DNA of 34,368 nucleotides from Gammaproteobacteria bacterium (GTDB lineage Bacteria > Pseudomonadota > Gammaproteobacteria > Steroidobacterales > Steroidobacteraceae): contig JAFAKO010000052.1 in the NCBI GenBank assembly GCA_019235245.1, positions 1-34,368 on the forward strand, in the 5' to 3' direction. The first letter of the stretch is position 1. Each line of letters starts with the position of its first letter. Made by a program: the position numbers and the translations under genes. Positions 3,220 through 9,346 of the stretch are shown in pieces. The notes under the pieces were generated by a model. That model did no database searches and was not told the origin of the DNA. It saw only the letters and a list, made by a program, of their open reading frames with translations.

Positions 3220-5616
3220 TCAGTCCCGGCGCAGGCGCACTCCGGCCCACAGCGCGCGCGGCTGCGCCGGCGACACCAGGTCCTCGTTCGTCCAGCCCGC
3301 GGGAGCGGCGATGAAGGTTCCCGCGGCAGTGAAGGAGTTGCTCGCGAGGAACCCGGCGGTGGCGTAGTGACGGTCGAAGAGGTTGGCGACCTTCGCGAAC
3401 AGCTCGCAGCCCGCGGCGATCCGCACGGTGGCGTGCAGGTCGGTCACAGCGTAGGCGGGCAGCCGGCCGCTGCCGAGGATCAGCGCACCGGCCGCGTTGG
3501 TGGCGCCCGCCTGGTTGGCGTTGTTCTCATTGCCGTGCAGGTAGGAGCCGGATGCGGCAACCAGGTTGGCTCCGAGGTCCCAGCCGCGGGCGCGGTACTC
3601 GAGCATCAGGCGTCCGGTGTGGCGCGGAATGAGCGGAATGTGCGCGCCGGGGCTGACGAGAATGTTGCCGGCCGCGTCGGCGCTGCTGTTCGATGCGGCG
3701 TTCACCGCGAAGCTCGAGCGATAGGTCGCATCGACGAGACTGTAGCTCGCCTGCCAGCGGAAACCGGTGTGCTGTCCGCCGATGGCGAGATCGAGTCCCT
3801 GACGGCGGGTGCTGCCGACATTGTCGAAGTAGCCTGAGTTGGCGGCGGTGGCGACGAACTGGATATCGTCGCTGTTGACGGTGCGGAACGCGCCGGCGCT
3901 CCACACCAGGCTCCTGCCGGGAGTCTCAGCGCGCACGCCCAGCTCGGCGGTGCGCGCGATGACCTGCTGCAGGGATGGGTCGCCGGCGAACTCGTTGGGC
4001 AGTCCGCAGGGTGCGCCGGGATTCGCGCAGCCGAGCTCGATGACGGTCGGGGCACGGCTCGCTTCGGCGTACTGCACGTAAAAGGTCGGGGCGTGGCCCG
4101 GTGTCAACGTGAAGCCCATGGATGGATTGAGACGGCTGAAGGTGTGATCACCGCTCAGCGGGCGGGCGAGGCCGAAGCCGGCGCCATAGTCGCCGAGGTT
4201 GCTGTTCACGCTGTAGCCGGCGAGCGTCTCGGTGCTGCGGTTGTAGCGCGCCGACACCGTTAGGTGCAGGAGGCTGCCGGGCGAGAGGGTGTCGGTCGCG
4301 TACAGGCCAAAGGCGCGGCTGTGGCCGGCGAGCGAGACCACGGTCTGGTCATTGAAGGGACTCTGCGCGTCAATCACCATGCGCTCGGCCGATAACTGTC
4401 CGTACTGGTACGACTGCGTGAAGTCATCGTCCGATCCGTTGTAGTCGGCGCCGAGGATCGCCTGGTTGGGCGCGCCGCGGAGCGGATGCGCATCGGTGAG
4501 CTGCAGGCCGGCGCCGGCGCCATGCTGGCTGAGCCGGCCCGAGGCGTTCTGTCCCGGCGAGCACCACAGGAGCTCCGCGGCGCTCGCCGGCGGGGTGTCG
4601 CAGCGCAACGGCGGGCCGCTGTAGTCCTCATCGAGGTAGCTGGCGTTGATGTTGCCGTTGACGGTGCTCGTGAGCAGCTCGCGGTAGTAGGCGTTGCCCG
4701 AGAGCAGCAGCCACGGCGTCAGGAACTGCGTGGCGGTGAGATTGAGGAAGTTGAGGCGATTCTCGGTGAGGTCGGGCGGGGTGTAGCTCGCCTCGCGGCG
4801 GTAGTCGAGCATGCTGGTCGGGAGCGGGCCGTTGCCGTTGAGACGCGTGTCGGCATAGGTGTAGCTGAGGTCGATGTCGGTGCGCTCGTCCTGCCAGCCG
4901 GCCTTGCCGAACGCCTGCCAGAGCCGCGAGGGCGAGAAGTCGCGCCACCCGTCCTCGTCGAAGTATCTCGCGGTCACGAAATAATCGAAGCGGCCGTGCC
5001 CGGCGCCGGTGGTCGCCTCGAACGAACGGCGGCCGAAGGAGCCGCCGTAAGCCTCGAGCTCGGTGCCGGGATTGTCGTGCCCGCTCTTGGTCCGCACCGA
5101 GAGCGCTCCGCCGAGCGTGTTCAGTCCGAACACGGGATTGGATCCCGAGATGAGCGTGACGGTGGAGATCGCCGACTGCGGCAGCAGGTCCCAGTTCACG
5201 GTGTCGCCGAAGGACTCATTGACGCGTACGCCGTCCACGTACACCGAGAGCCCCTCGGGCGTGCCGAGGAGTGGCGAGGCGGTAAAGCCGTGATACGTGA
5301 CCTCGGGCTGCAGCGGGCTGGCGCTGGTCTCGCTCACGTGGATACCGCTGAAGTTGTCGTTGAGGTAGTCGCCGAGATCGACCGACAGCTGCCGCTGCAT
5401 GCTCTCGCTGTCGCCGGTCTGCACGCCGGCAGGAATCTGCCCGCGCGGCAGCCCGAGGCCGGCCTGTGGCGTGTTGCCGATCACCGTGACCTGCGGCAGC
5501 TCCTGCACGGTCGCAGGATTCGCCGGCGCCGGCACCGTCGGCTCGCTGGCGGCCGCCGCCAGCGGCAGCCCGCAGACCGTGAGCCACGAGAGGCCGCTCC
5601 GATAGCGACCGGCCAT
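3220..5616 (-). CDS. TonB-dependent outer-membrane receptor
   Basis: Signal peptide, plug motifs (VYVDGVRVNESFGDTVNWDLLPQSAISTVTLISGSNPVFGLNTLGGALSVRTKSG) and C-terminal LHATVRIAAGCELFAKVANLFDRHYATAGF. Confidence 0.92.
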   Translation of the reverse strand: MAGRYRSGLSWLTVCGLPLAAAASEPTVPAPANPATVQELPQVTVIGNTPQAGLGLPRGQIPAGVQTGDSESMQRQLSVDLGDYLNDNFSGIHVSETSASPLQPEVTYHGFTASPLLGTPEGLSVYVDGVRVNESFGDTVNWDLLPQSAISTVTLISGSNPVFGLNTLGGALSVRTKSGHDNPGTELEAYGGSFGRRSFEATTGAGHGRFDYFVTARYFDEDGWRDFSPSRLWQAFGKAGWQDERTDIDLSYTYADTRLNGNGPLPTSMLDYRREASYTPPDLTENRLNFLNLTATQFLTPWLLLSGNAYYRELLTSTVNGNINASYLDEDYSGPPLRCDTPPASAAELLWCSPGQNASGRLSQHGAGAGLQLTDAHPLRGAPNQAILGADYNGSDDDFTQSYQYGQLSAERMVIDAQSPFNDQTVVSLAGHSRAFGLYATDTLSPGSLLHLTVSARYNRSTETLAGYSVNSNLGDYGAGFGLARPLSGDHTFSRLNPSMGFTLTPGHAPTFYVQYAEASRAPTVIELGCANPGAPCGLPNEFAGDPSLQQVIARTAELGVRAETPGRSLVWSAGAFRTVNSDDIQFVATAANSGYFDNVGSTRRQGLDLAIGGQHTGFRWQASYSLVDATYRSSFAVNAASNSSADAAGNILVSPGAHIPLIPRHTGRLMLEYRARGWDLGANLVAASGSYLHGNENNANQAGATNAAGALILGSGRLPAYAVTDLHATVRIAAGCELFAKVANLFDRHYATAGFLASNSFTAAGTFIAAPAGWTNEDLVSPAQPRALWAGVRLRRD

Positions 5617-6125
5617 CAGTCGGGGACGATGATACGGTGCGTCGACTTGACCTCTTCCATGACGAAGTAGGTGTGCGTCTGTTGCACGCCACGCACCGCG
5701 GCGATGCGGTCACCGAGAAAGCGCCGGTAGCTCTCCATGTCCCGGACGCGCACCTTCAGCAGATAGTCGAAGCCGCCCGCCACCATGTGGCACTCCATGA
5801 CCTCATCGTGCGCCAGCATCGCCTGCTTGAAGTCGTCGAACGCATCCGGAGTGGTGCGATCGAGTGAGACCTCGACGTAGGCCAGCAGTCCCAGTCCCAG
5901 GCGTCGCGGGTTGAGGCGCGCGAAATAGCCTTCGATGTAGCCTCCGGACTCGAGGCGGCGGACGCGCTCGAGGGTCGGCGTCACGGTGAGATGCACCTCG
6001 CGCGCCAGCTGCGAAACCGAGGTCCGTCCATCCTGCTGCAGCCGCGCCAGCAGCCGGCGGTCGATACGGTCGAGCACGCGCTCGGCAGTCGCCTGAGCTG
6101 GCGCGGGGGTCGTCGAGGCTGTCAT
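5616..6125 (-). CDS. Lrp/AsnC family transcriptional regulator
   Basis: LDRIDRRLLARLQQDGRTSVSQLAREVHLTVTPTLERVRRLESGGYIEGYFARLNPRRLG followed by a RAM domain; divergent from the putA region. Confidence 0.93.
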   Translation of the reverse strand: MTASTTPAPAQATAERVLDRIDRRLLARLQQDGRTSVSQLAREVHLTVTPTLERVRRLESGGYIEGYFARLNPRRLGLGLLAYVEVSLDRTTPDAFDDFKQAMLAHDEVMECHMVAGGFDYLLKVRVRDMESYRRFLGDRIAAVRGVQQTHTYFVMEEVKSTHRIIVPD

Positions 6126-6223: not shown

Positions 6224-7687
6224 ATGAAGGACACCGGGGTCAGCCTGACGGAGCTGCGCACGCGGCTGCGCGCCGCAACGCTGCGGGCGGAGGCGGACGC
6301 CTCGGACGAGGCGGTCGCCGACCTGGTGCCGGCTCTGGGTGCGCTCGAGCGTGCGCGCGAGCGCGCTGCGCGCTGGGTCGAAGCGGCGCGCGCCGATCAA
6401 CGCTCGCGGCCGCTCGTCGAGCGGATGCTCGAGCAGTTTCCCCTCGACAGTGCGCAGGGCAAGGCGCTCATGAGTCTCGCGGAGGCACTGCTGCGCACGC
6501 CCGATGCCAGGCGCGCCGACCAGCTCATCGCCGAGCGGCTCGCGACCATTCGCGAGGCGGGCGTCCCCGGTGACACGGACCTGTTGCTGCGCACCGGCTT
6601 CACCTTGCTCGGTGCCGCCGGCAGGCTCCTGCCGGATGTGCTCGGCGAGCTCGCCGGTGAGTTCTCCACCGCGAGCCTCACGCGGCCGGTCATCGCACCG
6701 GTCGTGAGAGCGGCGCTGCGCCAGTCGATGCAGCTGCTGGGTCACGCCTTCATCGTCGGTCAGACCATCGATGAGGCGCTGGCACGCGGCGCGGCCGACC
6801 CGGAGCTGTCGCTGTGCTCCTACGACGTGCTCGGCGAGGGCGCGCGCACGGAAGCGGATGCGCAGCGCTATTTCGACGCCTACTCCCAGGCCATCGGCGC
6901 GCTCGCGCAGCAGGCGGCACACGGCACGCACGCGCGCTCGGGCATCTCGGTGAAGCTCTCGGCGCTCGAGCCGCGCTACACGCTGTTGCAGAGCTCGCTG
7001 GTACACGAGCGACTCGCCCCGCGGATGCTCGAGCTCGCACTCCAGGCGGCCCGCGCCGGTATCGGCTTCACCGTCGATGCGGAAGAGGCAGACCGCCTCG
7101 ACCTGTCGCTCGACATCATGGAGGCGCTGGCGCGTGATGCGCGGACCCGCGAGTGGGACGGCCTCGGGCTCGCCGTGCAGGCCTACGGCCGACGCGCGCC
7201 GCTGGTCATCGCCTGGGTGGCGCAGCTGGCGCGCGAGAGCGGCCGGCGCATGAGCGTGCGCCTCGTGAAGGGCGCCTACTGGGACAGCGAGATCAAGCGT
7301 GCGCAGGAGCGCGGACTGGCGAGCTTCCCGGTCTATACCTCCAAGGCGGCGACCGATGCGAGCTACCTCGAGTGCGTGCGCGACCTGTTCGCCGTGCCCG
7401 AGGTCATCTATCCCCAGTTCGCGACCCACAATGCCTACACCGTCGCCGCGGTACTGGAGCTCGCGCCGCCTGGGGCCGCCTACGAGTTCCAGCGGCTGCA
7501 CGGCATGGGCGAGGCGCTGTACGCGGCGGCGCGGGCCGAAGTGCCGCATCTGCCGCCGGTGCGCGTGTATGCGCCCGTCGGCACCCACGAAGAGCTGCTG
7601 CCATACCTGGTGCGACGGCTGCTCGAGAACGGCGCCAACACTTCTTTCGTGCACCAGTTCATGAATCCGCAGATCCCGGTGGAGTAG
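6224..7687 (+). CDS. putA: Proline dehydrogenase half of PutA, ending at an in-frame TAG at the inter-domain linker
   Basis: PRODH motifs MSVRLVKGAYWDSEIKRAQ, YPQFATHNAYTV, EFQRLHGMGEALY and LLENGANTSFVHQFMNPQIPVE; no N-terminal RHH DNA-binding domain. Confidence 0.9.
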   Translation: MKDTGVSLTELRTRLRAATLRAEADASDEAVADLVPALGALERARERAARWVEAARADQRSRPLVERMLEQFPLDSAQGKALMSLAEALLRTPDARRADQLIAERLATIREAGVPGDTDLLLRTGFTLLGAAGRLLPDVLGELAGEFSTASLTRPVIAPVVRAALRQSMQLLGHAFIVGQTIDEALARGAADPELSLCSYDVLGEGARTEADAQRYFDAYSQAIGALAQQAAHGTHARSGISVKLSALEPRYTLLQSSLVHERLAPRMLELALQAARAGIGFTVDAEEADRLDLSLDIMEALARDARTREWDGLGLAVQAYGRRAPLVIAWVAQLARESGRRMSVRLVKGAYWDSEIKRAQERGLASFPVYTSKAATDASYLECVRDLFAVPEVIYPQFATHNAYTVAAVLELAPPGAAYEFQRLHGMGEALYAAARAEVPHLPPVRVYAPVGTHEELLPYLVRRLLENGANTSFVHQFMNPQIPVE

Positions 7688-9346
7688 GTGGGCCGCGACC
7701 CGGTCACCTTGCTCGCCGCCGCCGCGGCGCCTGCGGCGCCCTCGCGGCTGCGCGAGCCGGGCGCGCTCTTCGGCGCCGAGCGCGCCAACTCGATGGGTGC
7801 CGACTTCGGCGATCCGGTGTCACTCGCCGCGCTCGAGGCGGAGGTGCGCGCCCAGGCTGAGGTGGTCCACACGGGCGGTCCCCTGTTGAATGGCCGCCCG
7901 ACCCGGGACCTCGCGGTCGCGGTCACCTCGCCCGCGGATCGAAGCGTCGTCGTCGGCCACACCCGCGATGCCACCGCCCGGGAGATCCGCGAGGCGATGG
8001 CGGCGGCCGCCGCGGCCCAGCCGGCCTGGGACGCGTCCGGGGCCGAGGCGCGTGCGGCCTGCCTCACGCGCGCGGCCGATCTGCTGCAGGCAAGGCGCGG
8101 GACGTTCCTCAGTCTGCTGATCCGCGAGGGCGGCAAGACCCTGCCCGATGCGATGGCGGAGCTGCGCGAGGCCGTCGACTTCTGCCGCTACTACGCGGCG
8201 CGCGGGCGCGAGCTTTTCGGTGCGCCCGAGCAGCTGCCGGGTCCGACCGGCGAGCGCAACACGCTCTCGCTCGAGGGACGCGGCGTGTTCGTGTGCATCA
8301 GTCCGTGGAATTTCCCGCTCGCGATCTTCACCGGTCAGATCACCGCGGCGCTCATGGCGGGCAACGCCGTGGTCGCGAAACCCGCGCCCGCGACGCCGCT
8401 GGTCGCGCATGCCATGACGCGCCTGTTGCACGAGGCCGGCGTGCCGCCGCAGGTGCTGCAGCTGACACCGGCCGACGGACCGCCTTTCGGCGAGGTCGCG
8501 CTGAACCATGCCGCGCTCGCCGGCGTCGCCTTCACCGGCTCGACGGCTACCGCCAGCACCATCAATCGCACTCTCGCCGGCCGCGACGGCGCCATCGTTC
8601 CCCTGATCGCCGAGACCGGTGGGGTGAATGCCATGGTGGTCGATGCCACGGCTCTGACGGAGCAGGTGGTGGACGATGCGCTCACCTCCGCCTTCACGAG
8701 CGCCGGCCAGCGCTGTTCGGCGCTGCGCGTGCTGTACCTGCAGGAGGAGATCGCCGAGCGCGTCGTCGGCATGCTGATCGGCGCGATGCGCGAGCTGAAG
8801 ATCGGACCGCCGGAGGAGCGGTCGACGGATATCGGCCCTGTGATCAGCGAGGCCGCGCGCGAGCGACTCGCGCGGCACGCCGAGCGCATGCGGCGCGAGG
8901 CACGGCTGCTGTATGCCTGCGAGCTCGATCCGGCGCTCGCCCGCAAGGGTAGCTTCTTTGCGCCGCAGCTCTTCGAGCTGCAGCGGCTCGATCAGCTGCG
9001 CACCGAGGAGTTCGGGCCGATCCTGCACGTCGCGCGTTACCGCAGCGATGCGCTGCCGCAGGTGCTCAGCGCGATCCGGGCGACCGGTTTCGGTCTCACG
9101 CTCGGCATCCACACGCGCGTCGAGAGCCTCGCCGAGCACGTGTTCCGCGCGCTGCCGGTCGGTAACACCTACGTCAACCGCAATATGATCGGCGCGGTCG
9201 TCGGCGTTCAGCCCTTCGGCGGCCAGGGGCTCTCCGGGACCGGACCCAAGGCAGGCGGGCCGCACTACCTGCTGCGCTTCGCCAACGAGCGCACACTCAC
9301 CATCAACACCGCCGCCATCGGTGGCAACGTCGAGCTATTGTCGTAG
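7688..9346 (+). CDS. putA: Delta-1-pyrroline-5-carboxylate dehydrogenase half of PutA, same frame as the upstream ORF and immediately after its TAG
   Basis: ALDH/PutA motifs ISPWNFPLAIFTGQITAALMAGN, LIAETGGVNAM, SAFTSAGQRCSALRVLYLQ, NTYVNRNMIGAVVGVQPFGGQGLSGTGPKAGGP. The actual translation start is uncertain (GTG 7688 or the internal ATG near 7793). Confidence 0.88.
   Translation: MGRDPVTLLAAAAAPAAPSRLREPGALFGAERANSMGADFGDPVSLAALEAEVRAQAEVVHTGGPLLNGRPTRDLAVAVTSPADRSVVVGHTRDATAREIREAMAAAAAAQPAWDASGAEARAACLTRAADLLQARRGTFLSLLIREGGKTLPDAMAELREAVDFCRYYAARGRELFGAPEQLPGPTGERNTLSLEGRGVFVCISPWNFPLAIFTGQITAALMAGNAVVAKPAPATPLVAHAMTRLLHEAGVPPQVLQLTPADGPPFGEVALNHAALAGVAFTGSTATASTINRTLAGRDGAIVPLIAETGGVNAMVVDATALTEQVVDDALTSAFTSAGQRCSALRVLYLQEEIAERVVGMLIGAMRELKIGPPEERSTDIGPVISEAARERLARHAERMRREARLLYACELDPALARKGSFFAPQLFELQRLDQLRTEEFGPILHVARYRSDALPQVLSAIRATGFGLTLGIHTRVESLAEHVFRALPVGNTYVNRNMIGAVVGVQPFGGQGLSGTGPKAGGPHYLLRFANERTLTINTAAIGGNVELLS

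Follow-up and report, generated by a model that had tools for sequence, protein, structure and literature searches.

An in-frame amber codon between the two domains of a gammaproteobacterial PutA is probably a recent mutation or a sequence error

The window analyzed here, a 34,368-nt stretch of DNA that makes up contig C180 of a draft gammaproteobacterial genome (3.59 Mb, 401 contigs, 83.9% complete), carries at positions 6224-9346 a single collinear reading frame for PutA (proline dehydrogenase, PRODH, plus P5C dehydrogenase, P5CDH), whose sole break is an in-frame TAG at 7685-7687. The PRODH half (6224-7687, forward strand) begins with an ATG, encodes 487 amino acids comprising the alpha-domain and the proline dehydrogenase barrel, and ends in NTSFVHQFMNPQIPVE-TAG. 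Directly 3′ of this stop, at a stop-to-start distance of 0 nt, a GTG at 7688 opens a second ORF in the same frame with no gap (GTG GGC CGC GAC CCG GTC ACC). This ORF (7688-9346, forward strand) ends at a normal TAG and would encode the P5CDH (aldehyde dehydrogenase) half, with 552 amino acids if the GTG is its start. A Shine-Dalgarno-like GGTGGAG (7678-7684, forward strand) ends 3 nt before the GTG. Reading through the amber codon yields 1040 residues with this one internal stop.

Profile searches identify the two halves as parts of one protein. The upstream half matches Pro_dh (PF01619, E=3.5e-96) and the PutA alpha-domain (PF14850) in Pfam, the downstream half matches Aldedh (PF00171, E=2.1e-108) and TIGR01238, and the two jointly span the PutA model NF008869 nearly end to end (profile positions 9-491 and 496-1039, respectively). 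The domain order, PRODH with the alpha-domain followed by P5CDH, is that of PutA. All residues invariant in 25 PutA relatives are kept, including C831, E797, and the PRODH motifs GAYWD and RRLLENGAN, and we found no second lesion within the 3.1 kb of putA. These results bear out the original prediction, made from the DNA alone, of one collinear PutA split by an in-frame amber codon and a following GTG, with catalytic motifs intact in both halves and no further frame disruption. The one property of a bifunctional PutA that the gene lacks is an uninterrupted chain, owing to the TAG. Because the downstream half matches its relatives in both length and conservation, a chance pair of ORFs is ruled out.

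The closest solved structures are 3HAZ (E=4e-296) and 5KF6, the PutA proteins of Bradyrhizobium and Sinorhizobium, respectively, both without a DNA-binding domain. The window gene is collinear with them through PRODH, linker, and P5CDH and keeps the invariant residues, but differs by one internal amber codon that, as written, cuts the chain after residue 487. In monofunctional pairs, such as PruB/PruA of Mycobacterium and the Thermus enzymes, the same two activities reside on separate chains, as they would here if both halves were made. In sequence, however, the window halves are PutA, with its alpha-domain and linker, rather than members of the separate-gene lineage.

The 83.9% complete draft has no proline dehydrogenase match other than this putA, and a second PRODH gene as backup was accordingly rejected. 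The gene adjoins a divergent Lrp/AsnC-family regulator (5616-6125, reverse strand; PF01037 and PF13412), an arrangement matching that in the alphaproteobacterium Caulobacter, where the Lrp/AsnC-type regulator PutR lies beside putA (PMC6168545). The remaining neighbors are ordinary: a TonB receptor, an aminotransferase, a DsbH-like protein, and lgt.

The interruption is private to the source genome. We compared 58 genomes of the genus, including the source genome, several of which lack putA or have it truncated at a contig end; in none of the other 57 where putA is readable does the PRODH or P5CDH match contain an internal stop. Likewise, no break at the PutA linker was found among 80 relatives from a wider contig collection. 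The TAG-GTG arrangement is not kept in the genus, as it would be in a conserved, translationally coupled gene pair. Most near relatives carry Gln (CAG or CAA) at the stop position, with Asp or His in some; the codon is GAT in two relatives, L008 and L007 (G017), the latter being the sister of the source genome in the tree. Judging from these codons, a single C-to-T transition from CAG to TAG would be the simplest path to the stop, and a change from GAG to TAG, also one step, would be less likely. The original prediction had put the codon one substitution away from GAG or CAG, with Glu in E. coli; the single step holds, whereas the near relatives do not point to Glu. The comparison of this codon in PutA orthologs that it had proposed thus returned mostly CAG, and one part of what it had named as evidence against itself, an uninterrupted PutA in all close relatives, was found. 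A private single substitution with intact flanks is what a recent null allele or a sequence error would leave. The residue after the GTG also departs from the near relatives, which carry Val (GTG or GTC) there: it is Gly (GGC, 7691-7693), with two bases changed beside the stop.

Both halves of PutA are under full purifying selection. In codon models fitted on a reduced taxon set, branch omega is 0.050 against a background of 0.054 for PRODH and 0.087 against 0.070 for P5CDH, with neither difference significant (2dlnL of 0.06 and 0.88, respectively). With the halves combined, the log-likelihood drops by 3.2 when the final 5% of the branch is made neutral and by 8.0 at 8%, which limits the neutral final fraction to about 4% at most. 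The branch of the source lineage is as long as that of its sister. Because a 5% neutral branch already costs more than 3 log-likelihood units, any loss of function would have to be recent, though only in relative terms, as the branch of the source genome is long. Constraint does not discriminate between a working split, a recent lesion, and an error, given that the flanks stay intact in each case.

The base rate of isolated stops in PutA genes bears on how the position of this one should be read. We surveyed the family and the class with the PutA model (about 150 matches listed in each) and checked the flagged candidates. Many flags (e.g. G356, G452, and G469) were rejected as internal stops, having only the normal terminal stop. 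Among the matches listed, a few percent of draft-genome PutA genes contain an isolated in-frame stop, mostly within the catalytic cores. The family survey yielded a TAG in the PRODH core of G536 (L250, G536:C124), right after GAYWDS and directly followed by GTG, a TAG in the PRODH core of G492, and a TAA between the domains in G574. In the class survey, a TAA lies in PRODH in G145 and a TAG in P5CDH in G210, while G373 (L170, G373:C29) has a frameshifted stretch within PRODH with several stops, the frame recovering before FATHNA. The loci with isolated stops related to that of L250 are L252, L251, L168, and L169. The interruptions in G536, G492, G574, G145, and G210 resemble that of the source genome in being single stops in an otherwise intact, open PutA. 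In contrast to the stop in the linker of the source genome, however, those of other draft genomes lie mostly in catalytic cores, a placement with which most of them could not be functional splits.

By chance, about 7 isolated PutA stops would include one or more in the linker with a probability of ~0.24. Two interdomain stops of about 7 (the source genome and G574) are slightly above expectation, with a chance of ~0.05, which hints weakly that stops between the domains may be tolerated somewhat longer. Because G536 has TAG-GTG within the PRODH core, and because isolated stops lie mostly in catalytic cores, neither the TAG-GTG sequence nor the linker position argues strongly for a split. The claim that the stop falls exactly at the linker is correct as to position, but one or two interdomain stops among about seven do not stray far from chance.

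We consider it unlikely that the locus encodes a functional two-subunit PutA, in which the PRODH half would end at the TAG, ribosomes would reinitiate at the adjoining GTG, and the separate P5CDH would pair with PRODH non-covalently. In a predicted model (mean pLDDT 80.5), residue 488 lies just past the final helices of PRODH (455-480) and ahead of a stretch of low confidence (503-507), and on this placement a split appears mechanically possible. The TAG and GTG are as close as in a translationally coupled gene pair, their 0-nt spacing falls within the range of stop-to-start distances over which reinitiation works (PMC10666635), and a GGAG lies just upstream. Monofunctional PRODH and P5CDH also occur naturally and are able to channel P5C (PMC10537722). 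The full constraint on both halves fits a split as well, but is equally expected under a recent lesion or an error. Against a split, the arrangement is known from one draft genome only and is common to no sister, the same TAG-GTG arose in G536 where it interrupts the PRODH core, and both the GTG and the GGAG-like stretch stem from inherited coding sequence. GGTGGAG, which sits close to the GTG, has a duplex energy of -5.9 kcal/mol compared with -6.1 at the true start; the equivalent stretch in relatives with an unbroken gene gives -5.6 (L143, L144, and L138) and -9.3 (L152). As these relatives have it too, GGTGGAG is coding sequence rather than an acquired signal. An internal ATG at 7793 was rejected as the start of the P5CDH half, since it has a weak Shine-Dalgarno site and would drop a conserved stretch (LREP-LFG-ER-NS). 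Our paper searches found no natural linker split of PutA. In favor of the stop-restart option in the original prediction are the stop after a complete PRODH fold, the 0-nt restart, and the constraint on both halves, a support that does not exceed what chance would give. It is improbable, too, that the window captures a PutA just after fission, with one substitution having turned it into two translationally coupled, still assembling, working subunits in a reversal of the usual PRODH-P5CDH fusion. A working split would offer a natural way of asking whether P5C channeling by PutA requires the covalent link.

Very little likelihood attaches to an older pseudogene, that is, to a species in which proline catabolism was lost at an earlier time and putA is decaying. 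The in-frame stop does lie in the only PRODH gene found in the draft genome. However, decay would be expected to bring further lesions or relaxed constraint, and the 3.1 kb contain neither, with branch omega as in the relatives. The rate analysis contradicts this reading, as neutral branch fractions above about 4-5% are rejected and the branch is no longer than the sister's; with constraint undiminished and a neutral fraction of at most ~4%, an old pseudogene is excluded.

Equally remote is readthrough or suppression, whereby some ribosomes would decode the TAG to give both PRODH and full-length PutA. The frame past the TAG does stay open and conserved, but the search for a suppressor tRNA came back negative, with no CUA anticodon among 25 tRNA matches (23 of them ARAGORN genes) in the 84% complete genome. 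RF1 is present (C368), and no pyrrolysyl synthetase (PylS) was found in the same 84% complete genome. TAG is also an ordinary terminator here, neither rare nor absent: besides putA itself, it closes rplM, which precedes rpsI, along with genes for RNase H, AlgH, and others, in each case with an unrelated gene following. With RF1 present and TAG in normal use, genome-wide amber reassignment was rejected, and the readthrough option raised earlier is disfavored on the same evidence. The in-frame-stop scan is able to detect recoding, since it picked up a selenocysteine codon, an in-frame TGA at RVUHGPT of formate dehydrogenase (L185, G000:C117, position 5115). A tRNA-SeC gene, selC (G000:C324:5169-5260), accompanies this codon.

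Because every close relative has an uninterrupted gene, a recent mutation or a sequence error is the most likely explanation. The TAG, confined to a single draft genome, is most likely either a very recent, unselected nonsense change in an otherwise normal bifunctional PutA gene or an error of the consensus, and not the mark of a new kind of split enzyme. Of the options first put forward, the recent null mutation and the error are thus favored by the uninterrupted relatives, the single C-to-T step, and the small neutral fraction. A CAG in the stretch between the two domains would have become TAG very recently, or only apparently. Should the base prove real, ribosomes would terminate behind a complete 487-residue proline dehydrogenase domain, leaving the P5CDH half either lost or produced only as far as chance reinitiation at the adjoining GTG permits. 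The TAG is thus either an allele of recent origin, null or weak, in the population sampled or an error in the draft consensus, the two being inseparable here. We infer the recency of the change, the absence of selection for a split, and the protein output. Against a recent lesion or error, the stop sits at one of the few places that leave both enzyme domains whole, and the slight excess of interdomain stops (this one and that of G574) points the same way. As it is, the case chiefly illustrates how frequently a lone stop in a draft genome resembles a designed split, and it provides controls for telling the two apart: comparison with relatives, constraint on the branch, and the occurrence of stops within catalytic cores.

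A single-base error or a population variant at the TAG is possible, and there is precedent in a Vibrio fischeri draft, in which a split putA was a sequence error corrected by resequencing (PMC2330054). We surveyed the source genome for in-frame stops, sampling ~627 kb of stretches. Within the ~58 kb of conserved frames that these contain, putA has the only credible in-frame stop (tblastn, best-frame filter), the other tblastn candidates having been rejected as out-of-frame or upstream matches. A coding-score scan with Pfam read-through of the 20 top sites returned only gene boundaries and the selenocysteine codon of formate dehydrogenase. As putA is the sole credible case in these ~58 kb, the assembly is not generally error-ridden, which itself counts against a recent lesion or error.

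Elsewhere in the source genome, two tRNA-Leu(CAG) genes on one contig (L132, G000:C190, 1501-1585 and 1908-1992) lie in facing orientation with about 320 bases between them and have similar flanks; they are either an inverted duplicate or an assembly artefact.
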